Below, one piece after another: positions 30,063 to 58,700 of a stretch of 64,000 bases of DNA. The stretch comes from Polytrichum commune (taxonomy: Eukaryota > Streptophyta > Polytrichopsida > Polytrichales > Polytrichaceae): assembly GCA_950295325.1 (NCBI GenBank), contig OX485806.1, positions 49,781,169-49,845,168 on the forward strand, written 5' to 3'. Positions within the stretch are counted from its first letter, which is position 1. Each line of letters opens with the position of its first letter. The translations under genes and the position numbers were made by a program. The notes beneath the pieces are model-generated. The model was not told the DNA's origin. It searched no databases and worked only from the letters and a program-made list of their open reading frames with translations.

Positions 30063-31140
30063 GTTCATTTTGCCACATGTGCTCAAATTCCCAAATTTTC
30101 ACAAGCATTTTGAGGTGCATACAGAGGTGAGGGACTTTGCCAATGGTGAATGTTGATACAAGATGGATGGCCATTGTATATAAGAGCAAGAAAAACGGAT
30201 GGTTGTCCGACCTTGTCCGACTTGTTTAAGAAATGTCTATTCCAAAAGTGGGATGAGTTTGGTCACCAAGTCTTTGGGGAGCTTAAGAGCAAGTTGTCTT
30301 CGCCGCCCGTGCTCAAGTTTGTGGAGTTTGACAAACCTTTTGAGGTGCATACATGGGCCAATGACTTTATCATTGTTGGCGCAAGATGGATGGCCATTGC
30401 ATATAAGAACAGGATACTGGATGGTTGTCCGACCTTGTCTGACTTGCTGAAAAATTGGCTATTCCAAAAGTGGGATGAACTTTGTCACAAAATCTTTGGG
30501 GAGCTCAAGAGCAAGTCGTCTTTGCCGCCCGTGCTCAAGTTTGCGGAGTTTGACAAACCTTTTGAGGTGCATACAGGGGCCAATGACTTTGCCATTGTTG
30601 ATGCAAGATGGATGGCCATTGCATATAAGAGCAAGAAATTGGATGGTTGTCCAACCTTGTCTGACTTGCTAAAAAATGACTATTCCAAAAGTGGGATGAG
30701 CTTTGTCACCAAATCTTTGGGGAGCTTAAGAGCAAGTTATCTTCGCCGCCCGTGCTCAAGTTTGCGAAGTTTGACAAACCTTTTGAGGTGCATACGGGGC
30801 CAATGACTTTCCCATTGTTGATGCAAGATGAATGGCCATTGCATATGGGAGCATGAAGCTCGATGGTTGTCAAAGGAGATGGCCAACTCATGAGAAATAA
30901 CTCTTTGTTGTAGTGCAATGTTTGAAGATGTGGCAACATTATTTGGGGTCACACAAAGCAAAGGTCTACATAGACAATGTGTCCTTAAAGTATTTTGAGA
31001 TACAAGTGCAAGTGAGTGCCAAGCCACTGCGGTGGCACGATATCTTTGCGCTTATGAAGGTGGATTTGATCCACAAACCGGCCATAGCAATGTGGTGCTA
31101 GACGCGTTAAGTAGACGGAAAGAGCTCCAACCAATGAGCA
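30063..31140 (+). pseudogene. Chromovirus RT-connection/RNase H remnants
   Basis: Pol resumes after the DNA transposon with PPVLKF-like sequence. It passes through a threefold tandem duplication of the connection segment (30195-30838) and continues into RNase H, recognisable as HYLGSHKAKVYIDNVSLKYF and RWHDIFALMKVDL (30930-31080). Stops and frame changes are frequent. RNase H keeps the Asp of the YIDN position. Confidence 0.65.
30195..30838 (+). repeat. Three 222-bp tandem copies of a pol segment
   Basis: The phrase 'gatggttgtccgaccttgtc' recurs at about 30199, 30421 and 30643, a period of 222 bases (74 codons). Each unit encodes DGCPTLSDL ... QKWDE ... GELKSK ... PPVLKF ... FEVHT. Because the period is a multiple of three, the first two copies stay in one frame (open from 30150 to 30806). 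The third carries a small deletion that shifts frame. Confidence 0.9.
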
Positions 31141-33407: not shown

Positions 33408-33947
33408 TGTCGTGTAAACTAAGATCGTTAAACACAACAGATCGAGTGTCATCATCAACATCAATTAGCAAAATAAACATAGCAAACTAATATGCTAAAC
33501 AACCGCCTCTTCAAGATGAGGGTTTCTCTCTCCAAGCTCAAGAAACTAAAAAGTCTTCTTACAAAGATTAAGAAACTCTAAAATTCACACACAAGAGTCA
33601 AGCTATCTCTCACTCCACGAAGGGAGAATCCAAGAGTGCAAGTGATGGAGAAAGAATGCAAAGGCTTTACTCATGATCTACTACACCATAGCCATAAGAT
33701 AGCAACAACAAGTTCTCTCTCTCTCAAAACACACTCACAAGACTTGACTTGACAACAATGGCAAGTCAAGATGCCTTCCTCTCCACATAACTCCAATCCT
33801 ATGTGGATTTCATCCATGGAGTGGATGAACAACTGACTAGGACTCCCAATGGAGTCCATAATCCATCCAAACACACATGGACTCCTATTGGAGTCCATTT
33901 ACTCCTAATTTGACGTGACTTGGCCCCCAATGTCGCCTCACGTGACA
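33408..33947 (-). repeat. 3' LTR of the methyltransferase element (540 bp)
   Basis: It runs TGTCGTG...GTGACA on the plus strand, with TGTC/GACA as inverted ends. The inner 432 bases (33516-33947) match the 5' LTR with six differences. The outer 108 bases (33408-33515), corresponding to the 3' end of the LTR in element sense, are almost entirely missing from the 5' LTR but are repeated exactly at 33950-34057. Confidence 0.85.
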
Positions 33948-33949
33948 GC

Positions 33950-34057
33950 TGTCGTGTAAACTAAGATCGTTAAACACAACAGATCGAGTGTCATCATCAA
34001 CATCAATTAGCAAAATAAACATAGCAAACTAATATGCTAAACAACCGCCTCTTCAAG
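33950..34057 (-). repeat. Extra exact copy of the 108-bp LTR end
   Basis: It is identical, base for base, to 33408-33515 and separated from the LTR body by two bases (GC). It sits between the polypurine tract and the LTR, where no LTR-end sequence should be. It probably comes from aberrant reverse transcription or recombination between LTR copies. Confidence 0.9.
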
Positions 34058-34069
34058 TGCCCCCCCTAG
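34058..34069 (-). promoter_or_regulatory. Polypurine tract of the methyltransferase element
   Basis: On the minus strand it reads CTAGGGGGGGCA, with seven consecutive G, about 315 bases downstream of the last stop. Its position directly before LTR-related sequence fits plus-strand priming. Confidence 0.65.
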
Positions 34070-34382
34070 CAGATAAGGAACCCCTCCAATCGGCTAGGAA
34101 TAAACACACTCATCGGTAGAGGTGTTGAACATGATGAAGTTGTTGCTACATCTATACATATCCAATTGGGTAGTGGTAATCTAAGGAATTAAATTCATGG
34201 TTGAGGAAGTAACCCAAGAACTGTAGGCTGGGTGCAATGTGAGCCCCATCCTTAATCGCCTTCAACAATTTATGTTGAATTCTTTGATAACTCTCCCAAT
34301 GTGATTTTCAATCCCATAAAACTTCCGACCAACTAGATAACAACTTCACCACTAAGACATGTGACAAACATCCACAAAGTCC

Positions 34383-35480
34383 CTAATCATGACCATTAAC
34401 GGCCATGGAGTGGGAGGCTTTCCGACAACGAGGACAAATCCAATTGCTAGAAGGAAGAGTCAAAAGGGGAGGTGTCAAACATGCCATGTGCCATCCACGT
34501 TGACAATGGTCGCACAATAACATCGTTACAGCTCCTTTCTTCTCTCCACACACATAACAAGGCAGACCCTGTGGTACAACCGCCAACTCGGGATGCACAG
34601 AGCCATCGATGGGAAGATGACATAGAGCACAATTCTTTGAATGCTCACGACATTCCCGTCCATCCTTGCCTTCAAGCAATAATATACCACTTGGTAAAAC
34701 ATCTTTTACCCGCAAAATTGTGCGCCCAGTCTTGACATCCAATGTCGTAGGCGCCTCCCGTTGCAAGTAAACATAATCCCCCTTGGAAAATCTACGAACC
34801 TGAGGTCGATAAGCTCCACTGCGGATCCGGGCATACCGTAATGTATCACAATGCTGAGCTATATTTAAGTTCTCCATGGCCATAGGGATGGCCTTTTGAA
34901 AGAATTCTGCTCGGTCATGAAGATATTGAGCCCAAACATCTGGATCATCCAAGTCTACCACAGGAGCCAATTTCTCTCGCACAGAGCTAGGTAAAATTGG
35001 TTCCCGTCCATACAAGAGTTGGTAAGGACTATAGGATGCCAAAGATGCTTGCGTGCTAAAACGGTAACCCATTGCTATCCATGGTAACATCAAGTCCCAA
35101 TCGCGATGGTTGCCATGAAACAACCCATACTTCCGTAAACCGCGCTTGACAGTCTGAACAATTTGTTCAGCTAAGCCATCTGCCTCAGGGTGATCTCTGG
35201 AAGTTGTTCGATGATCAATTAAAGCCTTAGTACACAAAGCCTCGAAAGATCCAAGAAATTCTCTCCCTTGATCCGTCAACACCTCTGCAGGTGCTCCAAA
35301 CCGTGCCAAAACTCGATCAAGAAATGCCATAGCCGCCAATTCTGAGGAATTTTGGGAAAGAGCCACGAGTTCAATTCACTTACTAAAATGCTTCACCATC
35401 ACAAGTACATACTTTGCCCCACGTGGAGTGATAGTAAGCGGTCCGGCAAAATCCAAAGACCAACGATATCCCAAGCCCAT
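34383..35480 (-). pseudogene. Integrase core and C-terminal PHD finger
   Basis: The core follows the zinc region encoded just upstream. The catalytic Asp lies in SLDFAGP (about 35450), the second Asp in LTDQGREF (about 35270), and the Glu in ADGLAEQIVQ (about 35165). A stop (TGA) sits at 35376 within the core, at a position usually occupied by Trp in this family. After a basic C-terminal region (FSKGDYVYL) come NCALCHLP and then a canonical PHD finger, Cys4-His-Cys3: CYVC, LLCDHCQRGWHMAC, WICPRCR (34418-34562). The end of the ORF is at 34383. The PHD finger takes the place of the chromodomain of chromoviruses. Binding to a modified histone tail and a role in target choice are inferred from the fold, not shown. 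Confidence 0.9.
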
Positions 35481-37526
35481 AATAGGTAAAGGCTGAAGTT
35501 GAGGTAATAAAGTATTAAAACTTGACCTGACCCGGTCACATACTTCACACCTAGAAACATAAGTGGCAACCTGTTGATACATACCAGTCCACCAATATTG
35601 GTTGCGCAACATAGAGTGTGTCCTTCGCACTCCAAAATGTCCAAGCTCCTCGTGCACTTGCCGCACTAAAAAAACTCTTTGATTTAGCCTTAGAACGATG
35701 CGCCTTGTTCCGTTCGGCCACACACGAAATAACAAGCCGTTTGCCCAACAAAACCTTGTTATTCGATGGCTAACTCTATCTCGCTCCATAGCAGATAGTC
35801 CAAGAAGAAATATCCCTTGTTGAAGTTTGTGCAAGACCGCATGGTCTTCCCACACATCACTAACAACGAGAGATTTATCAACCTCCTCATCTTGTTCTTC
35901 CACAATGATCTCAGCAGCGAATCCCGACATCATTGTAAGATATGTAGCAGCGTGCCAACCCGGCACTGCCTCACGATTACAATATCCATGCCACCTGGCT
36001 CCAGTTAAATCCTCATCTGAAGGACTTGGATTGCGAGACAATCCGTCTGCATCCAAGTTGGCAATTCCTGCTCGGTGAACAACTTCAAAGTCATATTCTT
36101 GAAGTAACAATGCCCACCTAGCAAGTTTCCCGGTGAGTTTATCTGATTCCATAAACCATTTTAAAGGCTGATGATCAGTCACCAAAGTAAACTTTTGCCC
36201 ATACAAATAAGGTCGAAAATGTGCAATGGCCCAAACGGCCGCCAAGGCCTCGCCTTCATAAGAAGAATAATTAGATTCAGCATTATTATTGCTTCTAGAT
36301 GCATAACCCACCACATATTCTTTTTCCTCTTCATCTTTCTGTGTCAATACCGCTCCCAATCCCACTACACTCCAATCCGTGTGCAATTGAAAAGCTCTAG
36401 ACACATCCGGGCGTCAAAGCACTGGCGCTGAACCGAGCCTCTGCTTCAATGTATCAAATGCGTGTTGTTGTTCCCGACTCCAAATTCATGGTTGGTCTTT
36501 CCCCGTGAGAATGGTGAGAGGTTTGGCAATCAAACTAAAGTTTTTGACAAACCTTCTGTAATAATTTGCCAATCCTAGAAATGCCCGAAGTCGTGGTACA
36601 TCACTAGGAGCGGGAATTTTGTGCAAAGCATCCACCTTTGCTTGTTGCACACCAAGACCGCCAGGAACAATCATGTGGCTTAAATAGGGCAATCGATCAT
36701 GGAAAAACTTACATTTGCCATGATGTAATCGGAGTTCCCACCGTTGTAGTCGTTCAAATACCGCTTGCAAATGTTTCACATGATCCTGTGGACTATTATT
36801 AAAGATGATAACATCATCAATGTAACATCTAGCAAACGGTAAACCAGCCAATAATTGATCCATCACCCGTTGAAATTCAGCTGGTGCATTCTTAAGACCA
36901 AATGGCAAAAATTTCCAATGATAAAGTTGATCATTGTCATCTTTATCAATTCCCCAAAATGCGGTCTTCACCCGATCACCCAACAACAAAGGTAATTGAT
37001 GATAACCAGACCTCAAATCCAGAGTGCTGAAGATTCTAGCAAATCCCAGTGCATCAAACAATTCCTCTGGCATCGGCATTGAATACCGATCCGACTTGGT
37101 CTTGCGGTTGACTGGACGATAATCACCACACATCCGTTTTTCCGTCCAGTTGCCAAAGATATCTTTCTTTGAATGCATAACCGTGGCACAAGCGTACTCT
37201 CCATTGGAAAGTTCAATCAATTCCGCTGCCAATAATTCTTGACATCGAGTTTGAACATCCAACCTTTCAGCTGTACTAAGTCTGTACGGCCGTCTGAAAA
37301 TAGGATGGTCGTCCTCGAGTTGAATACGAACATGTTTACCTTTATATCCTTCAAGATCATGAAGACTAAAGGCAAAACAATTACGGTAAGAGCGAATAAA
37401 TGCCCGTACCTTTCGTGCTTCGACACCAGTAAGTTTTGGCCCCACTTCAATTGGCCAATCGTCAAACTCCGTGGTTTCCTTCTTCATAGAAGGATTGCCA
37501 CTTGGTGCCAGCACAACCTGTGATTG
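35481..37526 (-). pseudogene. Reverse transcriptase, RNase H and integrase zinc region
   Basis: RT has the expected order: a KKDIFGNWTEKRMCGDYRPVN block, FSTLDLRSGYHQ, FLPFGLKNAPAEFQRVMD, and catalytic CYIDDVIIF (about 36808-36830), then FLGLANYYRRFV. RNase H follows with QLHTDWS (catalytic Asp), SSYEGEALAAVWA, TDHQPLKWF and LDADGLSR. The His2Cys2 zinc region reads HEELGHFGVRRTH ... CEVCDRV (about 35545-35690). Stops are at 36486 (TGA) and 36414 (TGA), both between RT and RNase H. The reading frame is otherwise continuous with the methyltransferase part upstream. The domains are full length, so the parent element was probably functional. Confidence 0.92.
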
Positions 37527-37529
37527 CTA

Positions 37530-37869
37530 GTCCGTGGAGAGGGCAACACCTTTGCCCCCATCATTTGAACTTGAATCCAAATGCGTATCCTCTCCACTAC
37601 AATCAGTTTGTGTAGCTAAATAGCTACCCACATATGAAGTGTCAACAAGAAATAGAAGTGGAAACATTTTATGGGCCTCCAACTTCCCAAAATCTTGGGC
37701 CAAAGCTGAAAAAACACGTTGGGCTCGAAACTCTTCCACAACCTGTTGCTTCAAAGAAAATAATTCCTCGGTGTCATTGACCTCTATGTGATCCTTGGAT
37801 TGCGGCTCCATTGCCCCCTGACTATTGTTCTCTGCCCTCAGAGGAAGCAATTGGTCATCCATACGTTGT
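37530..37869 (-). pseudogene. Linker between methyltransferase and RT
   Basis: About 113 codons in the same frame show no recognised domain. It contains an acidic, helical stretch (NDTEELFSLKQQVVEEFRAQ) and ends in a Ser/Asp/Gly-rich tail. It may be a flexible connector or a cleavage region between the methyltransferase and RT products. The stop at 37527 (TAG) closes it. Confidence 0.6.
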
Positions 37870-38960
37870 TGAGCAGCAAGACAAATTCCAATTATCCACA
37901 CAATGCTATTGAGATCCATAGCTTGTCCCAATAGGAAACGTCTCTGACCTTCCTGAAGCCCATGAGCAGCCGTGGTGCCTGTATGAAAACCCATGGCTCG
38001 TTCCCGCTCATCTGCCGTAGGCTCATCATGAGTTTGGGATTTTTAATCCCAAACCATGTCTGGTCCATGAGATCGAAATGCAAAAGATTGTGGATATGTC
38101 ACAAAAGTTGGTAGTGCATCTCTCGGAATTCCCACCTTGTTAATTAATGCAAATAGCAATGTGTCATCCTTGGTAACTGCCAAAGAAACACGATGAGCAT
38201 CTAAAATGTCATCCACCTTGCGATTCATAAGGCGGAGAATGCGGGCGATCGCCGCTGAAAGCACCTGAGGTGATACCAAATTGGTCCAAAACCAACGAGG
38301 CCGATGAGCAAAAGATCCCAAGGATGCAGCATCCAGAAATGTTGGAGTACCCAGAATTTGGTTAATGTACTCACCATCCTTCACCACTTTGTGCTGTGTA
38401 TCACCCAATAATGGCACATTTTCAAAAATGTACCCTGGCGGAGTTGATTGGTGGGTAAACCACCATTGTATCAATCGCATCAAATCCGCGAACAAACTAG
38501 ACCTAGGATCATCCAAACCCTGGCCAGTTCCTACCCGTGAATGGCCTTGACAAGGCCATCCTGCAATAATTAAATCCACGTGGCCCAATCTTCTCAAATC
38601 CTCATCACTAATCATAGTGACATCTTGAGGAAGTTGACCACAACATCCAAGAATGGTAGTGGCTGACAATTGTGCGGGGTACCTCAACAACAATTGTTGA
38701 ATGTGGTGTCGGACGGCTCTATTGGCTGCATATCCATTATCCACATGAATATATCGCCTAACTGTAATCCCAGCCGCCAACACTGCCGCCAAACCTGTGC
38801 CAATGCTCCCAAAGATTTCTACAAGGACAATACCTTCAGGTGGTGATTGCCAACGGATGGGTTGAGCAAAAGAAAATGAAGATGACGTTGGAGGCGTCTC
38901 TCCAAGCCCCAAGTCCGCTACAATGTGTCGACAATGGTCGGATAACTCTTTAGGGGTACG
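37870..38960 (-). pseudogene. C5-cytosine DNA methyltransferase domain within pol
   Basis: The domain shows nearly the full set of C5-methyltransferase motifs in canonical order. Motif I (AdoMet site) is LVEIFGSIGTGLAA (about 38808-38837). Motif II is IHVDNGYA. Motif IV has the catalytic Cys in GWPCQGHSRVG (about 38546-38556). Motif VI is IFENVP (about 38411-38433). Motif VIII is HRPRWFW. Motif IX is ERERAMGFHTGTT and motif X is RRFLLGQAMDLNSIVWIIG (about 37900-38000). The order I to X is not the rearranged order of plant DRM enzymes. A TAA at 38043 separates motif VIII from IX/X, and a TGA at 38961 lies just before the domain. Length, about 330 residues, fits a bare catalytic domain with a short target-recognition region. 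It would transfer methyl groups from AdoMet to cytosine in DNA. Whether it acts on the element's own cDNA is inference. Confidence 0.9.
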
Positions 38961-39023
38961 TCATGGTGGAGGTGGATCCTTGAAATGTCGAGCAGGAATT
39001 TGTAAAGTTGGCAAATTTTGTTG

Positions 39024-40283
39024 TTATGTTGTATTACAAGCGTAGTCCAATGTTTCCTCCAACAAAACTGGAGCACAAGGCAAATCCGCAACTGAACCAC
39101 TGCAACCAAACATTGCCTCCGCAACCATAGTCATAGAAGTAGCTGCAAATGCTACCGGAATAAATACCTTCCTGCCATCTCCAGAAGACCATCCCGGTCT
39201 AATCCATGCCTCTTCAGTCCAATTATCCAAACCAAAGCCAAGTGGATAAAGAGCTTGCTGACCAACAAGTATATCATAGTTGGTAGCATTAGTAACAACA
39301 CACTTCATTAACAAATGAGTGTAGGTAGGTCCTGCCCCCACATTAAAAATCAAACGTAGAGGTGCCTTGGTGTAACCTGTTGCACGTTCAGTGCCCCCTA
39401 CTGAAGTCACAATTGTGAATGGACAAGGAACTAAGTTTGCTGGCGTCAATCCAAGACTGTCAGCAAATCCTTTGCCAATCATAACCGGTTGAGCACCGGA
39501 ATCCATCATAACTCTCAGTGGTGTAGCACGAATAGTAGGCATATCCGTGCGTGAAACGACAAACAAAGATTTGTCGTTCATCAGTCGTACAACTCCAGGT
39601 TGCAAATTATACCGCTCGCGAGCAGGCCTTGCAGAAATATCTGCAAGATATGCCGCTCCTGCTGCATAATTCGAAAAGGACGTGTCCACTGCTGAAATTG
39701 TTGATGGATTAATATCAGTGTGCTTACCAAAAGCAATGATCGCCGCATCCGCAAGGCTCGCTCGCAAATTGGCTAAGTCCTCCACCTCCTCAGCCACAGT
39801 TACGTCAACAACAGCTTGGGACACTTGAAGGGATGGCAAATCCGCCTTACCTTCTAACATTCTCCCAACTAAATGGAAAACTCCAGCAGGCTTGAAATCT
39901 GGAGCCATCAACTCTGAACCCGAGAAAATTGGCATATAGAGAATTTTATATGCCAATGTCTGCGTAACATCCTTCGAGATGGAATCTCCATCTCTCAAAG
40001 GTACAGGGTTTTTAGTCCCAACAACAGTGGTGTCTACCAATCCAAATGAGAGAGGTAAACGTGCTTGACCAACTTGATCCGCTGGTCCAGCATGGCGAGG
40101 ATGTGACACCTCGTTGCTACCACCACTTGTAGAAGCCACCGCATTTGCCAATGTTTGTGATTGCGTAGAAGCCGCAGCCACCACCTCTCCAGATGCCCCA
40201 AACATATACATGTCCGCACCCGAGGTGCCACCACCTGCATGCGGCTCAGAAATTTGAGCGAAAGATGCAGAAGATTTGAGCTT
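39024..40283 (-). pseudogene. Aspartic protease region
   Basis: The open frame contains the retropepsin active site as VMMDSGAQPVMIG (about 39490-39515), followed by a FADSLGL segment, a Thr/Gly-rich flap-like stretch and a C-terminal NYDILVGQQALYPLGF. This is the usual 'ILG' helix-strand of gypsy proteases. The N-terminal 200 codons are Ala/Ser-rich with no motif. The next in-frame stop is TAA at 39024. The upstream stop at 40284 separates it from Gag, where a readthrough or fusion would have been needed in the parent. Confidence 0.8.
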
Positions 40284-41624
40284 TTACTCAAGCTCTGCCA
40301 CCTTAGCCTCAAGACTCTGCTCCCTTGGAGATTTGCCAGTGACATAACTGGCAGGCCGCATCTCAGGCTGAAGTTGGAAACAATGATCCACATCGTGATT
40401 AGTGCCACCACAATGGTTACATTTCAATTGTCTCTTCTTAGAATTGTCCCCTGCTTTTACTGGTTCTATCTTTTGTTTTAATTTTCCCAAAGGCTGGGTT
40501 TTCTTCTTCTTAGGACAATTGGGATCATTCTTCGAATGACCAGCTTCTCCACAACCCCAACAATGCAAAATCTTTTGCTCCTTAACGGTTTGAATCTCAG
40601 CTAAACTACTAGTAGCTGTCACAATTCTTCTTGATTTCGTACTCTCTGTCATCCAAGATACCATGTCTGTGGCATCGCGTTGACAGAGAGCCCGATCACA
40701 TCTCTCAACCACGGCAAACGCTTGTGCAAGCGTAGCTCTGCCTTCGTAGTCGAGGATAATCCGAGGTGATGCCAACTCAAATAGCCGCTTGTCAATCTTA
40801 GACAAAAAGATTTTGACAAGTTGACTCTCAGCAAAAACACCTCCCGACTCAACAGCAAAGCGTGCGAGTCGCGTATACATGGTCCGTGGAGTGTCATCCT
40901 TCTCTCGGCGGAAATCCTGAATGCGCTGCATCTGGTCTCGCCGAAATCCACCATACTCCACCTCCAAATGTGCGACAAATTCAGAAAGGGGATTAAATGG
41001 AGGTGGTGGACCAACAGCCGTCAATGCTGCATGTGTAGCACGTGCCATCCGTGAAAGGGTAGCCGTGCTACTGCCAACCACTATTGGCCCAAGTGCCAGT
41101 TCTTGGTCCTTAGACTCCTCCGATGGATCCTCCTCCTTTAAGGTGGGTGGAGCTAAGGTAGCAACCGCCCCATCTTTAAGGGCTGAAATAAGCTCAACCC
41201 GAGCCTCCCAATACTGCTCCACCTCCCGAAGTTGTCGCTGATGACCCTCTGTCCAGCGTTCATAAGTTTGGAGTGCCTCATACTCCAAATGCTGAGGCAG
41301 AAGTTCAAAGGCATACCAATCATTGAAATTGGAAGACCTTTGACGTTTCTCTTTAATCCAGGTACGAAACCGGAGTTTCCAATCGGGCAAGGAAATGCCC
41401 CCAGCTCGACCTGAAAACCGATCACGCACTGAATTGTGGCGATCGTCCTCCATTTCGTCGAACGTGCCGACACTCCAAATCCGAAGCCTACTAGTAGTGT
41501 CCAACGCCGAAATAGGCTCAAAAGCCTCGTTGGTATCTACCTCTGGCTCAAGATTTGTGGTATGCACGTCCTCCAAGTAATCTGGTGATGGAGATCGATA
41601 ATATCGGCTCCTAGTTTGCACCAT
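40284..41624 (-). pseudogene. Gag with two zinc knuckles
   Basis: The 446-codon frame begins MVQTRSRYYRSPSP. The middle is a capsid-like helical domain (a YGGFRRDQMQRIQDFRRE segment and a FVAHLEVEYG segment, as in gypsy Gag). The C-terminus has two CCHC-type knuckles: CWGCGEAGHSKNDPNC, with spacing 2-4-6 instead of the usual 2-4-4, and CNHCGGTNHDVDHC with normal spacing. A Lys-rich linker joins them. The frame ends in TAA at 40284, after which the same frame continues into the protease region. Gag would form the particle and bind element RNA. Confidence 0.88.
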
Positions 41625-41790
41625 AAAATAATCACTTGAGTACCTGCAACTATCTACAAGGTAATGACAACCTGCACTTGTTGCGGGCTATCTAAATGGC
41701 AATCCCTTGCCAAATGCCAAGTGTTTATTTAGGCCCCCAGAATTCCAAAATTGTGCAAAGGTTTGAGATTGGTAATTAAAATTAAAAAAA

Positions 41791-42225
41791 TCAGCGTTGA
41801 AAATGTTAATTTCCAAGGTGATTATGGACTCCAATCAACAAACTAATTGCACCAATGGACTCCTAGGAAGATTTCACGCAAATTAGGCTCAAATTTCACT
41901 CCGTTCGGAGTTAATTTGCACCCAAAAACAAAAATCAGCGTTGAAAATGTTAATTTCCAAGGTGATTATGGACTCCAATCAACAAACTAATTGCACCAAT
42001 GGACTCCTAGGAAGATTTCACACAAATTAGGCTCAAATTTCACTCCGTTCGGAGTTAATTTGCTCCCAAAAACAAAAATCAGCGTTGAAATTAATAATTT
42101 CAGCAATGATTTTGAATTCCAATCAACAATCCAATTACACCATTGGATTCCTTGGCAAATTTCACACAAGATAGGCTCAAATTTCACTCCAATCGGAGCT
42201 AGTATGCCCCCAAATTTGAACCTCA
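41791..42225 (-). repeat. Three tandem copies (about 144 bp) in the element's 5' leader
   Basis: 'tcagcgttgaaa' starts copies at about 41791, 41934 and 42079. Copies 1 and 2 are nearly identical, while copy 3 is more diverged. They lie between the 5' LTR and Gag, in transcribed leader sequence. Confidence 0.88.
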
Positions 42226-42269
42226 AAGTTTGTGAGAATGGGATGCCAAGTTTGAAAGGTGAAAGTAAA

Positions 42270-42385
42270 AATGTGAAATAAAATAAATAAAAATAAAAAT
42301 AAAAATAATTGTTTTAATTAAACAAAAACAAAAACAAAATAAACAAAATAAACAAAAACAAAAACAAAAACAAATAAACAAATAA
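42270..42385 (-). repeat. A-rich simple-sequence tract in the leader
   Basis: Runs of 'aaataaa' and 'aaacaaa' units cover about 115 bases on the plus strand (U-rich in element RNA). Confidence 0.8.
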
Positions 42386-42486
42386 AGGTAAGGGCTTACC
42401 TTATGGGCTTGGCTGGCGCCGCCCGCCCGCCCCCGGCTTCAGGAACAGGAGCTCCAGGAGCTCCAAGAGCTCCAAGAGGGTCCGGT

Positions 42487-42510
42487 GAGCTCCGGATCGG
42501 TCCGGAGCTC
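42487..42510 (-). promoter_or_regulatory. Perfect 10-bp hairpin in the 5' leader RNA
   Basis: GAGCTCCGGA and TCCGGAGCTC flank the loop TCGG, giving a fully paired 10-bp GC-rich stem about 335 bases inside the 5' LTR. Nearby copies of GAGCTCC occur upstream. Position between LTR and Gag suggests a packaging or dimerisation structure, which is inference. Confidence 0.6.
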
Positions 42511-42843
42511 AACAAAAATTAAAAACAAATCGGATTTGAACTAAAAAAATTAAAACTAAAACTAAATCGGATTTGATTAAAAAAAATTAAACTTTGCTTC
42601 CACAATTTGCAAGCAAGAAAGATGTGACTTGAGATTCCATTTGGTCTCAAGATTCAACCATCAACAATTCAAGAAAACACAAAGACACAACAAAAGAGAT
42701 GTGGAGATTTTTCTCAAAATCTTCTTGAGGGTTGCAAGGAATTGCAAACTAAGCTTTCATACACTTGTATCATTCATTTGCTCCCACTACTGGGCTATTC
42801 TAGCTCAGAAATACAACCAAAAATGAAAAATAAGCCCAATTGT

Positions 42844-43283
42844 TGTCAAGTATGAGGGTTTCTCTCTCCAAGCTCAAGAAACTAAGAAGTCTTCTTACAA
42901 AGATTAAGAAACTCTAAAATTCACACACAAGAGTCAAGCTATCTCTCACTCCACGAAGGGAGAATCCAAGAGTGCAAGTGATGGAGAAAGAATGCAAAGG
43001 CTTTATTCATGATCTACTACACCATAGCCATAAGATAGCAACAACAAGCTCTCTCTCTCTCAAAACACACTCACAAGACTTGACTTGACAACAATGGCAA
43101 GTCAAGATGCCTTCCTCTCCACATAACCCCAATCCTATGTGGATTTCATCCATGGAGTGGATGAACAACTAACTAGGACTCCCAATGGAGTCCATAATCC
43201 ATCCAAACACACATGGACTCCTAATGGAGTCCATTTACTCCTAATTTGACGTGACTTGGCCCCCAATGTCGCCTCACGTGACA
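42844..43283 (-). repeat. 5' LTR of the methyltransferase element (440 bp)
   Basis: It runs TGTCAAG...GTGACA on the plus strand. Compared with the 3' LTR it lacks about 101 bases between TGT and CAAG, precisely the 108-bp end segment. The remaining 432 bases differ at six sites. Because reverse transcription normally makes both LTRs identical, the loss happened afterwards or during an aberrant integration. Confidence 0.85.
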
Positions 43284-43340: not shown

Positions 43341-44336
43341 TGTCGTGCACCTCTCTATGAAGAATGCCCAAAACACCATGGACTCAAGGGGGATCCCAGA
43401 GTGACACCCGGGACTTATGGCACCATTGGTGAGAAAGCCCAAGTGATCCTAGTATGGGTGATGGCCCCGAGCGTTAGAAACTCCTCCCACCCACGGAAAC
43501 TAGGAGTCACGAGTGTAAGGCCATAAGCTATGGATAGCTTATGGAATGTTGATTTTAAAATGCTCAAGAACAACTTTAATCAAAGGTGTGAGCTAGGAGA
43601 TATGGCAATTTGAGTGGGGCACTATCCCGGGACAGAGCCTTGAGACAACAGTGGCCTGGGAGTGGCTCACGGGATTACCAAGCTTTCAATAGGCATAACT
43701 TCTTGAAATCTTGCTTGAATGGGGCAAGTGAGGGGTCCATTGGCATCTACGTGAAACGAAACTGATCATGAAATGATCGTATGTAAACATCAAAGATCAA
43801 ACAATGAAGTTATGTTGGTCTGAAGCTGCTGGGGGCTTCTAGCCCAAACGGTTAAGTAAAAAAATGTCTACTTGGCCCTAATTCTTGGTAGAGAGACAAA
43901 AGGTTTCTTAACAGTGGGGTAAGGGCCCTGCTAGAGATCCTAGATGCTTTATATGGGTGAGGTGGCATGGCCGGCCAAACCCACCCAAGGCCAAACGACA
44001 GGGCCTTCACGGGCATGGGTCCAACATGGGGTCATTGTTGCTTAGTATGGTTCAAGTTGTTATAGTGTTGCTCCAGTGTTGCTCTAGCAACACGATGATC
44101 AACTAAAGATTAAACTTTCATGAATGGAAATCCACATCTTACCATTGGTTATCGATGAAACAGTGAATCCTGAATGCAAGTATAGGAGGGTTGGTGCCCT
44201 TCCTATGAACGAAGAGGTCCACAGTATGGGGAGCTAACCATTTGCGTGGCAGAATGCGAAGGGTTAGTGCTCGTGACCCTTGCTAGAATTGAAAAATGAC
44301 CAAGTTGATTGTGGGTAGTTGTCGACGGTTGCGACA
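43341..44336 (+). repeat. Chromovirus 3' LTR
   Basis: It starts TGTCGTGCAC and ends GGTTGCGACA, 996 bases, collinear with the solo LTR at 26835-27807. A purine-rich GGTCGGGGTAAG directly precedes it and serves as the likely polypurine tract. Numerous substitutions relative to the solo LTR show age. Confidence 0.85.
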
Positions 44337-44861: not shown

Positions 44862-45115
44862 TGTCACAATCTTTGCTAGCCCCCTTAACAATCTTGATCA
44901 ACTTTATTTCTAGCAAGGGTCACGAGTGCTAACCCTTCGCATTTTTCCATGCAAATGGTTAGCTCCCCATACCGCGGACCTCTTAGTTCATAGGGGGTGG
45001 ACCAACCCTCCTACATTTGCATTCGGCATTCACCGCATAATCAATAACAAATGATAAGATGTGGACTTTCATTCATGGAAGTCCAATCTCAAGTTGATCA
45101 TCATGTTGCTAGAGT
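44862..45115 (-). repeat. Inverted fragment of chromovirus LTR (3' end)
   Basis: Read on the minus strand it matches the last about 250 bases of the LTR family: hairpin-like 'ttgctagagtaacaa' (elsewhere 'ttgctccggcaac'), the 'gaccctTGCTAG' region, and an end near TTGTGACA. The rest of that LTR is missing. Confidence 0.7.
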
Positions 45116-45660
45116 AACAAGAGGAATCTATGTGGAATCCAGTATGTTGTCGACATTCCCCATGGCTTCGGTTGTGTTCACCAACATGGACTTCGACTAA
45201 GCTGTGGAAATGTGTTGAAGATGCAACTTTTGTTGATGACTCGATGAAGTGAGGGATCTCAAGAATAAATGCCCACGTACAAATATACAAAGTAGCTACA
45301 AAGGAGGAGAACATTAGATTCCAACAGTATGGTACAAAGTTCCTCTTGGATGATAATCTAACAGAGGGATGATAAATGTCAACACTCCCTATCCAGCTGA
45401 GAAGCTCGCAACCCTAGCTCTCACATTCATTTGTATACTTGTCAAGGGGAGTATTTGGGAAGCACAAGAGCATCATGTAGGAGCATAATTGAGTCGAGGA
45501 AAGGTCAACATGATGAGCCGCCCTGCAAGCTTGGTGAAACATAGTGATTGTAGCATATTCAACAGGTGCAATCTTGGAGACATGTGACCAGGGCTGATTT
45601 TTCACATAGTTTTTGGCCGTCCACGTCCAAAAACCTTGAATTGAAAGGCAAAAAAATTGC

Positions 45661-49745: not shown

Positions 49746-52700
49746 CTGGAAGAATAGAAAATATGAGTCCAAATATACAAGTGTCAATGTGGTAACTCAA
49801 ATTGCTAATATTGTCCAACATAGGACATAGAATATATTGAATACATAGGACATCTCACCGGAAGTAGAGCTTGGAGGTTTCTCCTTTCCAAAAAGACATC
49901 CAGCTTGACACCTTTATTTTCTATTTTTGGTGACACAAAATCCTCAACATGGATACCAGAATTCCTGTAAGCAGTGAGCATGAGCTTCTCCCCTTTCTCG
50001 TTTCTCAAAGTATCTAGGACAGCACCAAAGATGTCCAGAGAATAACCCTCCATTAAAATCTCACCACATTCTGCACCACCGTCCTTCAACAGGGTGTTTA
50101 CTTCAATCAGAGAAAACACGCCTGCAGAGACTAATCCTCCCAGTAAAACACCAAAAAACTCTGGTGCCTTGGGGACATCCACTGCAGTATCCACCAGATG
50201 TGAGAGTACTCCCTCCATCCTGCAAGTACAAATCACAAAAAGCACTAAGTTCATGTTCTGCTACAGAATGGCATATCAAATTGTCAGATAAGGAAGCACA
50301 TTCACAAATAGACAACAAAATCGAAGCCAAGCTTATATTGTGAAGCACAAACATTACCCTTCATAGAACTGCTCATGCGTTAGAAGCAAAGGTTCACACT
50401 TTGAAAGATGAAGAAGCAACTTCAAAAGCAAGTCTCTATCTTTTTCCTTCTTCTCTAGAGACTCTGACACCCAAGTCGAAACCATTACAGGATGGTATCG
50501 GGTAGCCTTCAACTCCTCCACACACAATGCAGCTTCTTTTAGGTCCATTACACTGCAGAAAGCAGTGGAGGGCATTATCAGGAAAAAAATTCACAATTGA
50601 GAAGATGGAAAAAAATGATCAACAGAAATTGTCAAGATGTAGACAGCTAGTGAGTTGAGCTGACTCAATCACATGAAACAAATGCTGCTGCCAAAGAAAT
50701 TTCAAGACATCGAGACTGTTTGTCTATTACAAACCTACTAAGACATGGAAAAGTAACCTGTAATATTCGTTTATGGTTGATTGACATTTCTGCTTCAGTT
50801 CTGCTTCGCTCAATAACAGTGAGGGACAAGGTGGCATCACTTCAGGCTGCTGTGGCTGGAATTCATAGACTGATGCATTTGGATGCTCAAGTTTGGCAAT
50901 GATTCTATTCTGTTCAGGTGTAATGCGCAAGTCTCGACCTCCATCAGGAGCCTTCAGTCTGCCTAAATGGATTTTTTCAGCTGGAGTAGGCTGTTCCGCG
51001 GTAGAAGCTCGCATTGGCATGTCCTCCCGAAAGCCATGATGCGGTCTGTCTGCAACACTGAATCGGACAACCCCTCCACCTGATCGGTGCACATCAGCAC
51101 ATGCCATGGGTGAAATATCACTCAATGCCCCTCGTCCAGTCGATGGTTGTCGAATGCCCAATGCCCTCCCAAGATTGCCCTGGGGGCCTAAAGTGATATA
51201 ACCATCATCAGTAGCCTTCTGAGTTAAAGGCAGAGGAACTGAACGGATGTCCACAAGTGATCTATCCTCCATCCGCACATCCTGGACAAAGCTCCCTCCC
51301 CCACCTTGCATTGCTCCTTGTGGAGATGGAGCCCTCCGCATGCCACCCAAAGCTGCCCCTGTCTCATTCAAGCTTGTACTTTAACTGATTGCACTTGATC
51401 TTGATAGTGAAACAACTAAGCATAAATGGAGTATATTCATTTACAAGCTCTTGACAAAACCAGGCACCCTCCAATTCCAAATTGTCTCTCTGAAACAAGT
51501 CAAGACAGGAACAACCACAGTTCCTCAACCACAGTATCATACAGAAAGACACACAAATAAGTCAAGGAAAAACGAAAAAAAAAAAAAATGCATGGAAGTG
51601 CATAAAGAAGCAGCTATACTACCCTTGAACCTCAATGTGCAAGATGACCAGGAATCAGATAGTGAAATCTCGGCATTGTATCCAATATATCTCCACGTAT
51701 ATATACACAAACTGATAAACGCAATGATCAGAGTGTCCACATACAGCTCCTTTCCCAATGCTCAATATGATGTCCTCTACGTCTTACCAGCACCTATTTG
51801 ATTTGGCGAAAATCCTGGCAATTGAGAACTCCGCATGGCAAATTCTGGAGAAGGTCCAATTCTAACTCGAGCAGGAGCACCTCCCATGCTAGGACCTCGA
51901 CGGTCTCCACGTGCAGCTTGCTGCCTCTCTTGCACAGCGTCTCTATGTACCTCATCAATTTTCTTGGGTCCTTCAACTTTTCTTCTCTCTTGCCATCCAT
52001 TTTGCCGAAGGTCAATAACATCCTTCAACATGAATCTCAACCTGGATGATAGCTTCATGTTATTTGATAGACCCTCTATTCTTCTGAAGTATTGATCGAT
52101 ATGCTCTTTAGCTTTTGGGTGATCAATGATTCGGCCAATCGTGCTCATCAACTTGCACAAGGCCTCAACATCTTCCTCATCCGGGTTATAAAATTCCCCA
52201 AGGAGCTTCTTGATGCACTCATGCATGATCCGCTCAGTTAACATGCTTTTTTTGTAAAGCTCTCCTATAAAGCGAATATTTCCTAGCATTCTCCTCCGTG
52301 CCTTCAACCGCTTCTCTTCTCTCTCCTCAGGAGTCAGCTTCACTTCACCTTCATTCTCTATCTTCTCAGCCTCTTCTTGTTCTCTTTCCCCACGCTCAAA
52401 CTCCACTTGACACTTATTGAGGAGAACTCGCTTGAAAGTAAATTTCTCATCATTTTCAGCAAATTCTGGTAAATCTGCAGCAAGCTTGACACAGAACTGG
52501 GCGTACATCTCACAGAATGTGGGCTCCATCAGTGCTTTGTCAAATATCTGTGAAATGACACCTGTGAGAGTTTCAGCAGAATCAATACTGGCAGCCTGGA
52601 CCTGTGCAAACAGTTTCTCAAAATTTTGAGGTGTCAGCTTGTTCAGAATCCCCTTAATCAGCCTCTGCTTTGCAGATTCCTCGTCTGAGACCTTACCAAC

Positions 52701-55700
52701 CTCATACCTATTTTCTGCCTTGTGGATTGCAGGTAATGGAGAGCGAGATGAGGAGATCATCCCTGAACCCACCATTGGTTGCCGATGCCACCTATCTCCA
52801 TCTACACCATTCAAATTTGCCCGAGAAGGAACAGGTGCCATGAAATGTGGAAGCATTGTGTTACCAGGCCCTCGTGAAATCAAACCCGTAAAACCTGTTT
52901 GCGGACTGACCATGCCAGGCCACACTGGTGATGACAGATGCGAAATTAATCCAGGCTGTGTATTTGTTTGTCCTGGCCGGAAACCAACTGGCATACACAT
53001 ATCCATTCGCACATCACCAAGCTGATTCCTTCCAGGGGATGGTACAAGTCCAGATTGTCTTGTCCAACGATCTTCATTTGGTCCATGTTGTACAACAAGT
53101 CCCCTTCGGTCAAGTCGTGGGCCACCACTGTTAGGCTGACGGTCCCCTATGCGTCCAGGGCTAGGTATTACATCCAGCACTCCACTGCCATATATAGCTG
53201 GGCTAAATAAATGATCTTGAATAATCTCGTGCCGGATTTCAAAATTAGGTGGAAGGTGCTGATTTTGGTCTTTGAAAGTCATAAGGAAATCACGAGTATA
53301 CTTCCTGTCACCTCGGTCTAGAGGTTGACCAAATGATACACTTGGTGTCGGAAGCTCAGCTGCATCCTCCCAGTCATCCACTTCCTTGAGTAAAGAGTTT
53401 TGTGGTACAGCAACACAATCTTTTACATCACTGTTCAAAAGGCCAGGACCAGATTCATCAATCTGCTTTACCCCTTCCAACTTCTTTTCTGGGGCTGCCT
53501 TGTATGCATTATACAAATCTGCAGTATTTCCAGCTGCATCTGCTCGGGCAAGAAACTCCTTCTTCTTCTTCTTTTTGCTGGCCCCTTTCAAACCTTCCAT
53601 TGCAAGGTTTGCATGTCCCATGGAGGTGGGTTCAAGCGTTTCCGTCCCATTTTCAGTAATGTGTACAGCTACACTAATTTCACCCAACGGACTACTCAAC
53701 AGAGGAGTACGCTCAATGACAGAACTAATTTCTTCAAATGAGAGGGCAGAAACGTCCTCACACCCAGTGGGAGCACTTTCTGTGGATCTCAAGTTGCCTA
53801 AAGATCTCAAACATGTGTTTGATTTCAATATGAATAAATCATCTGGAATTCCTGGCGTAGTCAGCTCCATAAAGTCATCCTGTTGATCCCCTGAGACGAC
53901 TGGCATCAACTCCGTCACAGGTGGATCTGATAACTCAACAGCTTTTACTCCAGACTTGGGTGTCCCTTCCACAGTATCAGTGGACAATGACAGAATTTGA
54001 ATTGCTGATTCCTCTACTTCACATGAATAATTATCTAGAAGTGCATCTGATTGTCTATCAATTCTATCAGATGCCAGGTCATTTTCAGATAGACATTTAT
54101 CTGCTTCATCTGTCTCGTCCAACACTTCAGCACCACCATTACTAGTCTTTCCACCAGTAAAATCTTTGACAAAGCTTAACTCTGTATCACCAACCTTGAA
54201 GCTTGGACCAACTCCTGTATTCAATGAAACCAGAGAAGATACTGTAGAATGACCAGTATCCCCTCCCTCCATTTGCAGAGCAGCCAACACACCCTGATCC
54301 CCACCTTCATCATTCTCCAAAAAAGAATCTGGTGTGACCATCCCTTCAATTGGTTTTAGAACCAAAGCAGATTCTTCCTCCAGGACCTGACTACCAGGCA
54401 CAGTTGAATCCAATTTAGAATCCAATTCACTGTCCAACCGCTCATTACGATATGTAACATCCCCATCTTTCCCTCTTTCCTCATCCTGCACTGATGCAGA
54501 GAAGCCTTCCTCAGCAATACTTTGCTTGCCCCGAAAATCGTTCAGATCCACTTCAACCTGCCCGATAGCACCAGTCACACACTTGCATCCAGGACAGGAA
54601 CTTGCAGAAGTCCCCGTTGTAAAGTTTGCATGGACTAATACATTTCTTTCACAAAGTGCACATTCCTTGCCTTTTGACACTTTATCCTTGCTAAAGGAAC
54701 TGTCAGATGAGGAACCAAATTTATCAGAGATTGATATAGAGGCACACTCATGCCCTGTTGGTGATCCTAAATCCCATGGTTCATTAGCATCTGCAAGTAC
54801 TATCTGTTGAGCAAGGAGCTCCCTTTCTTCCTTTCCAACAAATTCGCCAGCATCTTCAGTGTGTGGAGTCTCCAAAAATGAGGTTGTTTCTGGACAGGAA
54901 CAAACAGAACAAATGCTCTATAAGAGCTTGGAAGAGCCACAACCAAAGAGACTCAAAGTAGCAAAGTGAGGCATCAGATCCTCTTCTACACTAAGACATA
55001 GATGACATCCCAATTACAAGCCAATAACATGACTTGCTCAAAGCAAGCCAAGCATACAACAACCAAATAACTACATATGTCAATACAAACACAGCCTTCC
55101 CATAAATACCATCACCTCCACAAATGCATCCTTTCCATGTCCAAATCTATCAGAAATATAAACGATCAGTAATGTAGTAAAGCAGTAATCTATCAGCACA
55201 GTACACATTCAAATATGCAGTAAAGCCACCAGTCTTGGCCTAGTCCTGGACCAGTAAACCTAGCATCCCGACATTAAAAGTAGCTACAAATCAAGGATTG
55301 ACAAATAATTCCAGTTACTTGGTGTATAGGAGATGACAAAGAGATCTGAATTGCATGTTCTGTAGGACAGCAGGTATCACATGAATTAGTGGACATCTAT
55401 TATACTATGGAGATGAAAATGGACAACTGTAGACCCAACAGGAAGATTCATGGTATACCTATTATAATCAGAGAATTAAAGCCAATAAAGACTTTTGAAA
55501 CAAGTCCAAATTGAGAGACTACACAGTATTACACAGTATTTTTGCCAATAGGAGACAACCAATAATCGCATCACTGTGCTCTACTTTCACTTCAAATAGA
55601 TTGATACCATTCAACTCACGGTTGTTGCCTCACCAACTTATCCTACACAAGCATCCCCAATCATGACTGTCATTCAAAGCATCAGACTGCGACCTTCATC

Positions 55701-58700
55701 TGAATAGCAGTACCAAGTTGCCATTTTCAAGATCGACCTGAATTATGCAAAGGTTTGCACACCGGGTCAGAACAAGAAGCTAGGATAGGCATATGAAAGA
55801 TATCGTCTATCAAAACCACATTGTTCATGGAGTCAGAACATGCACATGCCCTCTATTTAGTAATAGACAACAACATTGTGATTCAAACCAGACATACCAT
55901 GACCCATGAATGTCACTTCAGATCTCATCTTGGGAAGTTCCTGAATGCTTGTACTGATTGAAGGTGCATGGAGTGTAACTGTGACCTCAGCTCCAGATTG
56001 AGCATCATGCATGCCTGCTCTAAGGACCTGTAGCGATGCTGCAATAGCAGATGGACCATCCAATGACAAATCTTCCATTGAGGTCAGAACAGTTGATGGG
56101 GCCAGCTGACTAGAATACTTGTCTGATTGCCCTTCAAAAACCTGTAAAGTTGGAGTAATTAGGTGAGGGGATGGATGATGTTGCTGCTGTCGTTGTCTGT
56201 CTTTCTTGGTGTTCTTCCTTGAATTCTGGATTCCCAAGGTCTTCACGGTCTCAACTTTCACAATTTCTCCCAATAACCCTGAACTACCTCTATCAGCTGT
56301 ACTGGGAGGCTTCAGATTAACAGCACCTGTACTTAAAGAGCTAGTACAAGGCTTTGGAGATGCAGCAGTAAATTTACAGTTTGCAACAGGGGTTGAAATC
56401 ACAGACATGTTTATGGTCGCCAATGCACCTAAATTTGGAGGGCTTATAGATGCCTGACCATTTGTAGTGACTAATGAGCTCTCAATGATTGCCTGTCCGG
56501 CATCAACCAGGCTAGAATCTGAAGCATCCAAATCCCCAAACTTAAATGCCAAAGGAGGTAGTGTTAGACAGGGGGCCAAGAGGCCAGACGTGGAAGCAGG
56601 CAGACCTGCAGGCCTTCGATTTAACATAGATAGATGGTTATTTCCAACCAATGGCATTGGGCAAGATCCTATACTGCTTGGCCTGGAATTAGCCATAACA
56701 GCAGGAATTCCAGCAAGTGTGGCCGAAGGTACAACAATAGGAGTGATCACTGTTGGTGCCATTGGGGGCTTGTTGTACACTTCTGGCAGTGCAGAGCTTA
56801 ATTGAGGCATTGGTCCCAGTTGAGGGGACCCTTTTGGACAAGCTGATCCCGGGTGGCCAACAAAAGGCACAACTTGCCCAGGAAGAGGACCAGCATAACT
56901 AAATCTTACAGCTGAGTTGTTCGATGGTGGGCCTCCAGCAGGTGCAACCGCCTTGGGGGGTACTGACTGAAAGAAACTAGGGGGAGGATGACTGTAAGGA
57001 TGACCATAGAAAGCCATGCTGCCAGGAACCATCTGATGAGATGGTGAAGGATTATATCCTGCAGGAGGTCGTTGAGCAGCACCATTAGTAGATAGTCTTC
57101 CAACCAGTCCAGGAGTCCCGGAACCAGATGTCATAGGCTTAATTTCCTTTAAGCAATCCCCTCTTTTCACCTCAAATCTGAGTTCCTCATGTGTATGTGG
57201 ATCCACAATTTTAATGGCCCTACTCACTCGCTGTGGAAGGAACTGGTTTGTAGAAGGAGCACCATATTGAGATCCTTGCATACTTTGAGAAAGCTGACCA
57301 CCCATACCACTAGCCAGGTTGGGACCTATGGAATGTGCCATTTGAGGTAAAATTTGCTGCGCAGACAATTGATTCGCCAGAGAGCTACCAATATGAGTAC
57401 CTAATACTTGCGGTCCATGAGGAGGGGGAGCCATCATAGGTTGCGCATACTTCATGGCTTGGGTCAAGCCTTGCTGCACTATTCCTTGTTGTTGGGGCAT
57501 TGCTTGATGTTGCTGCTGCTGTTGGGCCATTGCCTGTTGCATTTGAGCAAGCTGTTCAAGAGAGAATCAGAAAATCATGCATGAATATAAGCTCTACGTG
57601 TAAGCAGGAGGCTCAATTTAAACTTTAATATTGGAACTCTTGTTCTTGGCACCCCAATAAAGACCAAAAGACAACTTTCTCTAGAAAGACCTCTATCCTG
57701 TCAAGTCAAGATAGATGTGGTAATTGTCCCCAAACTTCCACCACCTTATCTTCCTTTACATTAAAATCAACCGGTCTGGGTAATCCATTATCTTCCAGCT
57801 GCTTGAGGTAAGCCAAGTCTCACATCACGAACCATAGCATGACCTTCATACATGTCCGTTAAAGTGCATAAATAACCCCATAAGGACATACAAATGTCAC
57901 CAATACCTGGAGCAAGTGAGGAGCAGGTATGTGCACATTGGCTGCCTGTGTGTGTTGTTGGGTATATTGTGCTTGAGCAAGCTGCTGTTGGGTTGCTTGA
58001 GCCTGTGGGGTTGCTTGAGCTGTTAAAGGAACATTGCTTAATGCCTGAGAGTTTACATTTGCTTGAATATGCTGCACCATTGCTGGTGAAAAATCTGTTA
58101 CTGGGGTACCCATGTTGGTTGAAGCCACCTGCAACCCAAATTTCTCAGAAAATTGCTGTACAGAATAGGTACCAGCTTCCAGAGTATACATAGTCTTTCA
58201 AATCTTCCAGGCAAGTAGTACTGCCAATTCAATGATATTAAAATTGTTAAAACCTTCAAGTGAAAGATGGCTTGCACCATTATGCAAGCTGACAATGGCA
58301 GTATGGAGCACAATAGATAACTGCAGACTGGAAACAGTTCCCAACTTTGGGATGATGTACTTAAAAAAACTGGCACAAAAGTGCTAGATAAACACCAAAG
58401 CACCTTCCATATTCACCAATGTAGTCATTCATTACTAGGACAAGTGATAGATAAGCCCTTGCCTCATAAGATATACAGACCTACCTGGATCTGCTGCTGT
58501 TTCCCGTGTGCAGGTGCTGACACTCGTGGAGATGGTCGCTCAAACCGGGCCTGTCTCCAAAACTAGTAGAAGTTAAATTCACTAATTCTATTGCAATCAA
58601 AAATCATGAGAAAATCTAGTGTTTTCTGGATTGCAGTTTCTTCCATCATATCCAATAGTATATATATAAAAGCAAAATTAACCTCCCAATCTATCCAGCC

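Follow-up and report, generated by a model that had tools for sequence, protein, structure and literature searches.

Plants silence transposons with 5-methylcytosine. Chromoviruses are Ty3/gypsy elements whose integrase carries a chromodomain, and PAT/DIRS elements, whose split repeats follow the order A1...B1-A2-B2, rely on a tyrosine recombinase and make no target duplication on insertion. From Klebsormidium, Gypsy elements with a DNMT3 and DIRS-like repeats have been known since 2018 (PMC5890265). According to its main text, KnitGypsy-Dnmt3 of Klebsormidium nitens has a non-rearranged DNMT3-type methyltransferase (MTase) in the Pol open reading frame of an element with Gypsy domains, and this MTase domain is under selection (Ka/Ks below 0.2). 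The same text describes SymbioDIRS-Dnmt3 of dinoflagellates, a DIRS element distant from Gypsy, whose DNMT3-type enzyme methylates CG in yeast. An earlier note on the locus studied here had named a charophyte precedent for retrotransposon C5-methyltransferases, and the Klebsormidium element bears this out.

The locus lies in a stretch of 64,000 nucleotides of Polytrichum commune DNA (OX485806.1, positions 49,781,169 to 49,845,168), hereafter the window. The reading that we favor, with the chances of its being right or wrong about evenly balanced, is that the window holds a decayed member of a Ty3/gypsy-type family, abundant and active in recent times, that has split repeats, a DNMT3-type MTase marking the element's own DNA, and a PHD finger on the integrase.

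Anatomy of the element and identity of its methyltransferase

The whole element, from repeat A1 to repeat B2, occupies 33408..43283 (-) and is flanked on both sides by the 4-bp duplication ACAC. A single minus-strand frame from 41624 to 34386 runs without frameshift through gag, protease, MTase, reverse transcriptase (RT), RNase H, integrase and PHD finger, i.e., by Pfam, the Ty3/gypsy domain order PR-RT-RH-IN with a DDE integrase. The gag region of ORF1 (40287..41624 (-), ATG at 41624) shares its start with homologues and has CCHC-type knuckles recognizable by eye, and the Pfam search of this region gave no gag match. It is followed by a linker and aspartic protease (39027..40283 (-)), with a DSGAQP motif and matches to Asp_protease_2 and gag-asp_proteas, both below the curated cut-off; by the MTase domain with motifs I to X (37908..38843 (-)); by the RT (36486..37526 (-); PF00078, E 5.4e-28); and by RNase H, integrase zinc finger and core, and integrase C-terminal region (34386..36413 (-); PF17917, PF17921). 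The integrase core profile PF00665 scores 25.6 bits in the window copy, below its cut-off of 32.6, and is above cut-off in L001, a relative from outside this genome.

The window copy is dead and decayed, its frame being broken by seven degenerative stops (at 40286, 39026, 38963, 38045, 36488, 36416 and 35378); those at 37529 (TAG 37529-37527) and 34385 are taken as natural ends and stand outside the seven. One of the seven, TAA 38045-38043, interrupts the MTase domain between motifs VIII and IX. Seven stops compare with 2.3 expected from the 1.6% divergence between repeats A1 and A2 (rough Poisson P 0.01), or with 3.1 were all changes C to T (P 0.04). A variant genetic code was set aside given that many sister copies have open frames, and CpG decay as the source of the stops shows no strong sign (CpG observed/expected 0.64 in the element vs 0.45 in the rest of the window).

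Other features of the window may be recorded here. The 5′ leader of the element contains three tandem 144-nt units (41786-42217; 99% and 78% alike), and a 217-nt inverted repeat of 84% identity (44077-44293 and 44903-45119) lies about 0.8 kb upstream of the element. A host exon with a MIF4G domain of the eIF4G type (51777-54917 (-), 173 bits) is found some 8.5 kb from the element, and the long frames beside it (50727-51380 and 55857-57566) have no Pfam match. A second gypsy-type integrase frame (16486-17997 (-)) is a piece with neither PHD nor MTase, and a repeated unit of about 222 nt at 30069-30861 resembles, by eye, part of a gypsy RNase H. The window contains no empty insertion site, and its Rfam scan gave nothing at gathering level.

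The earlier note had proposed a C5-methyltransferase domain with its motifs in canonical order, to be checked by a profile search. Pfam DNA_methylase PF00145 matches 38960-38043 (-) with 47.3 bits (E 2.5e-12, cut-off 22), which rules out a chance motif match, and the motifs, named by comparison with DNMT3A, follow each other from I to X on the minus strand (I 38822-38793; IV 38564-38538; VI 38429-38412; VIII 38309-38280; IX 38012-37986; X 37934-37908). The closest relatives in the PDB are DNMT3A, 3B and 3C. A profile made of nine element MTases scores 75.3 bits with DNMT3A, 49.5 with DRM (spanning profile positions 45-173 only), 35.2 with HaeIII, 34.3 with HhaI and 25.2 with DNMT2, and neither DNMT1 nor CMT is named among the 57 PDB sequences listed for it. 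DRM enzymes have motifs VI-X before I-V. A separate DRM-type host exon of the same genome (L158, a 196-aa frame) has motif X before I by eye, and gives only 28.7 bits with the element profile. The lower score of DRM and this permuted order rule out the capture of a rearranged DRM, as the same note had argued in favor of a DNMT3-like source. Judged by its sequence, then, the domain is a real, non-rearranged DNMT3-like C5-methyltransferase.

Copies, repeats and recent activity of the family

The assembly searched comprises 408 Mb in 64 contigs, seven of them of 42 to 78 Mb, with the window on the contig labelled C4. With the 305-aa MTase as query it gave at least 129 matches (545 candidates, 129 scored), and PF00145 found at least 123 places (353 candidates, 123 scored), some from other subfamilies. 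The integrase-PHD region gave at least 121 matches (1568 candidates, 121 scored), and at 100 of these an MTase lies no more than 6 kb upstream in the same orientation (95 by the MTase search, 5 by PF00145). Eight of the remaining 21 were inspected: six have an MTase at the expected place, in five cases split as by a frameshift, and in two (L166, L168) it is absent from there. In many copies the distance from MTase to integrase is equal. Since most integrase-PHD places thus have an MTase upstream, the MTase is a regular part of the element family, and the window copy belongs to a large, high-copy family. That a host methyltransferase entered this one element by a single insertion, or by an assembly join, retains virtually no probability: it is refuted by the 129 places in the genome, and the equal integrase distance and the relatives in liverworts and Sphagnum speak against it as well. 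The earlier note would have been overturned by absence of the domain from other copies; the search for intact copies that it called for found instead, among the 129 MTase matches, 15 without a stop in an open frame of 1386 aa. In the sixth of the six inspected places with an MTase, the one not split (L171, G000:C7:28461179-28462279), identity is 92% for the integrase-PHD region and only 53% for the MTase, and an MTase module seems to have been exchanged there between subfamilies.

Twenty of the 129 copies, spread down the match list and excluding the window, were sampled for closer comparison. The ends of the element are split direct repeats, A1...B1-GC-A2-B2, as in DIRS/PAT elements. In the window, A1 forms the left end (42852..43283 (-), starting TGTC; 98.4% identical to A2 over 439 nt), B1 (33950..34057 (-), ending GACA; 100% to B2 over 108 nt) is joined by GC to A2 (33516..33947 (-)) in the palindrome GACAGCTGTC, and B2 (33408..33515 (-), ending GACA) forms the right end. 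Repeat A starts with TG without ending in CA, and it is B that ends in CA, so the ends are not two plain TG...CA LTRs. Among the 20 copies, A1 is complete in 18, partial in one and unfound in one; the right end reads B1-A2-B2 in 14 (B2 interrupted in one), B1-A2 followed by truncation or by the limit of the fetched stretch in three, and B alone followed by flanking DNA in three. Where the B1|A2 junction could be read (15 copies), its sequence is GACA-GC-TGTC in all but one, which has GACA-AC-TGTC; L001 shares GACA-GC-TGTC.

In spite of these repeats, the element has neither the tyrosine recombinase of DIRS/PAT elements nor their lack of target duplication: it has an rve integrase, and 12 of 16 readable copies carry an exact 4-bp duplication, read by eye, beside A1 and the outer B. 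The other four show a one-base mismatch (three) or no duplication (one). Of the three B-only copies, two are flanked by a target duplication as well. Within a copy A1 and A2 diverge by 0 to 2.78% (13 measurable copies, three at zero), whereas comparing the full-length A repeats of the copies with those of the window gives identities of 92 to 97%, and of 88% in one case. Because A1 and A2 are nearly identical within a copy and more diverged between copies, we infer that every round of copying renews both repeats, with the inner B1-A2 junction probably templating both ends and the DDE integrase performing the insertion. An inner junction has been proposed as template for both ends in DIRS elements too. 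A search for a tRNA primer site in 18 copies met no sequence beginning with TGG immediately behind A1 and identified no primer.

The three copies with identical A repeats, out of 13, show that the family was recently active. Two of these three already carry stops (copies 3 and 16; L101/L121/L141 and L114/L134/L154), which means that insertion does not always require a functional MTase in cis; they suggest that defective copies are mobilized in trans or miscopied. Within the family, the MTase is constrained moderately and about as firmly as the RT, since among copies free of stops and gaps the mean pairwise dN/dS amounts to 0.44 in the MTase (10 copies) and 0.45 in the RT (13), with 0.43 for motifs IX-X and the tail (9). 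Over all 20 copies the values are 0.51 for the MTase, 0.46 for the RT and 0.61 for motifs IX-X and the tail. Compared to L001, at a distance where synonymous changes approach saturation, the MTase has a pN/pS of 0.30 and the RT one of 0.14, and the MTase is therefore looser than the RT over longer times.

Relatives and a relocated methyltransferase

Element MTases occur, among named matches, in Marchantia polymorpha, Calypogeia fissa and Sphagnum species, and integrase-PHD relatives also in Klebsormidium (P0049), Gonium, Tetrabaena, Haematococcus and a record tagged Chrzof1; metagenome proteins with no name make up most of the matches. The names listed include no seed plant, a weak absence given that 8000 candidates were scored per MTase search within length windows, and Klebsormidium is named by the integrase-PHD protein P0049 and nowhere in the MTase lists. 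The relative L001 is a 9285-base contig with identical 127-base ends, filed under a cyanobacterial MAG and eukaryotic by content; it is the one clear element among 80 genome-contig loci kept and inspected in part. We regard it as eukaryotic contamination whose circularity belongs either to the assembly graph or to the molecule itself. With the window it shares 62% identity in the MTase and 83% in the RT. Protein P0005 is likewise filed under a bacterial MAG. The viral contigs scanned contained no relative of the element and one distant MTase (L081, on a 30-kb IMG/VR contig); with the element profile, L081 and L002 (a Neisseriales MAG contig) come next after DNMT3A among 13 outgroups.

The position of the MTase is not the same in all relatives. 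It precedes the RT in the bryophyte group, and stands between RNase H and integrase in a mostly unnamed metagenome group, where motif IV changes from PC to EC. Of the 120 integrase-PHD proteins listed, 11 have the MTase directly before the integrase and the PHD finger behind (P0067 and P0128, two Marchantia gene models with MTase pieces, are outside this count), and one protein, P0230, has RT, RNase H, MTase and integrase in this order. In these 11 and P0230, motif IV is ExC rather than PC wherever the site is covered (8/8: P0142, P0117, P0132, P0134, P0161, P0089, P0129 and P0230). PF00145 is absent from the precomputed annotation of all 11, and hmmscan at 1e-3 misses the MTase of P0142 and P0230; with the bryophyte-type MTase profile, P0142 scores 289 bits.

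For the tree, proteins covering at least 250 of 340 profile columns (73) were taken together with the window and two short type II MTases, and with DNMT3A pieces, L002 and L081 as outgroup, P0194 and P0206 being dropped. A tree with 12 short bacterial and viral outgroups and DNMT3A had been discarded, as the outgroups fell in two places. The 74 element MTases separate from the three outgroups with a support of 99 (IQ-TREE) and 0.985 (FastTree), the outgroup being thin, with neither a plant host DNMT3 nor a Klebsormidium MTase. The nine type II MTases form one group (100/1.0), which falls within type I, the bryophyte-type MTases, in a clade shared with 32 of the 65 type I sequences (99/0.978); deeper nodes are weak (39 to 58/0.21 to 0.85). 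P0199, which shows no integrase and has motif IV PC, groups with type II, where ExC is thus found in 8 of the 9 MTases covering the site.

The change of motif IV in type II, together with the blindness of Pfam to the MTase of P0142 and P0230, would suit an MTase that has lost DNA methylation and now binds nucleic acid or methylates RNA within the particle. The Klebsormidium Gypsy DNMT3 gave no methylation in yeast, which would agree with such a loss; its authors draw no conclusion from this assay, as human DNMT3B failed in it too (PMC5890265). For the family of the window we hold this explanation unlikely, however, since the 20 sampled copies keep motif IV (C in 20/20, P in 19/20) and, in 16/20, the motif VI Glu, which is lost in four. 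The wider homologues that cover each site have the catalytic Cys in 92/95 and the motif VI Glu in 103/108. The motif I of the window copy, FGSIG, has an S that occurs in 0/20 of the sampled sister copies.

A leaky-type stop, a putative histone reader and the known systems

The earlier note had placed the MTase between protease and RT in one reading frame. The shared frame stands, and the fusion to RT does not: a natural stop of ORF1, TAG CAA TCA (37521..37529 (-)), closes the gag-protease-MTase frame. All 20 sampled copies have TAG CAATCA after the MTase, as do the further loci L085, L086 and L089, the last being one of the 20 (L084 was unaligned, and L083, L087 and L088, given unreversed on the minus strand, are outside the count). 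In L001 the same TAG CAATCA parts two open frames. By its letters, UAG-CAAUCA matches the readthrough context UAG plus CARYYA, as this context is cited in PMC3441728. Homologues beginning at the gag Met terminate ahead of the RT in 12 of 12 cases, in a search that returned proteins of about 450 to 1440 aa and that longer fusions would escape. MTase and pol domains do occur in one predicted protein in Marchantia (P0034, P0035, P0039, P0040) and Sphagnum (P0043), which could reflect gene models that splice past the stop or else genuine fusions. Because of the conserved TAG CAATCA and the termination of all 12 homologues, the MTase belongs to the gag-protease product, with pol presumably made by readthrough.

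The C terminus of the integrase is a PHD finger (34425..34559 (-); PF00628, 41.3 bits). PF00628 is found in 112 of 120 listed integrase-PHD homologues (of 179), a count biased by the presence of the PHD in the query, and the predicted integrase-PHD structure is poor (pTM 0.34). Among 60 of 75 PDB matches listed, the PHD relatives include CHD4, PHF12, KAT6A, KMT2D, PHF21A, KDM5 and UHRF1, several of which read unmodified H3 tails. The finger of the element has Gly at what we take to be the position of the tryptophan of the K4me3 cage, and we infer that its specificity is probably for unmodified H3.

From these parts a mechanism can be proposed. Ribosomes would mostly halt at UAG-CAAUCA, giving the MTase at the level of Gag and pol by occasional readthrough. 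Placed in the gag-protease frame, the MTase would thus be packaged in the particle, where it could methylate the new cDNA, or act on the insertion site after entry. An insert arriving with the host's own mark would be kept so by maintenance methylation and resemble resident heterochromatin, while the PHD finger, probably reading the unmodified H3 tail, would steer insertion. The element could this way write the plants' own silencing mark itself, trading expression for tolerance. The CG methylation by the DIRS-borne DNMT3 in yeast speaks in favor of this mechanism. Against it weigh the negative yeast result with the Klebsormidium Gypsy enzyme, the stops in copies with identical A repeats, the loss of the motif VI Glu from four of 20 copies, the moderate dN/dS, the two integrase-PHD places lacking an MTase, and the predicted MTase-pol proteins of Marchantia and Sphagnum.

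The same anatomy would serve an MTase that shields the cDNA from a host nuclease or deaminase and has no silencing role. We know of no plant defense of that sort, and think this explanation improbable, even though shielding is offered in the discussion of PMC5890265. An MTase acting in trans, i.e., raising or disturbing host methylation to the benefit of the element rather than marking its own cDNA, is slightly easier to accept and still quite unlikely. The high copy number in the genome would agree with it, as would the speculation in PMC5890265 that Symbiodinium methylates CG throughout its genome in response to retrotransposon DNMTs, but the Klebsormidium methylome is plant-like in spite of such elements (PMC5890265), and placement in the gag-protease frame would point to packaging. 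A wider reading, tentative and somewhat less probable than its opposite, is that an old Gypsy lineage of green plants and green algae works as an epigenetic reader-writer, in which the PHD finger picks the chromatin and a Gag-level DNMT3-type MTase marks the cDNA; the module would have been kept, swapped between subfamilies and moved, in elements combining split repeats with a DDE integrase.

A successful transposon that retains the writer of the silencing mark, with a histone reader attached to its integrase, turns the usual picture of the arms race around, and the dosage of its MTase may equal that of a structural protein. Marchantia polymorpha is a laboratory plant. As the family is abundant and recent and has relatives in that species, a land plant now offers the means to test why DNMTs are carried by transposons.

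As in chromoviruses, the integrase ends in a chromatin reader, here a PHD finger and there a chromodomain. With PAT/DIRS elements it shares the order of the split repeats, and unlike them it has a DDE integrase and a 4-bp target duplication. These two features also set it apart from SymbioDIRS-Dnmt3, with which it shares a DNMT3-type MTase in a retrotransposon (PMC5890265). To KnitGypsy-Dnmt3 it is closest, both having a DNMT3 in a Gypsy element with DIRS-like repeats, and P0049 of Klebsormidium has the same integrase and PHD as the element (56%). The main text of PMC5890265 has no occurrence of 'phd', 'readthrough', 'marchantia' or 'physcomitrella' and mentions bryophytes in connection with host DNMT3, and a full-text literature search, with subscription journals mostly outside it, returned no paper on such bryophyte elements, their PHD, leaky stop or target duplications. 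Whilst the MTase of KnitGypsy-Dnmt3 is placed in the Pol frame by PMC5890265, the element described here has a conserved UAG-CAAUCA between MTase and RT, and it shows target duplications and a high copy number. What it adds to the known kind is, then, abundance in a land plant, the leaky stop, the PHD finger, the target duplications and, in related elements, a relocated MTase.
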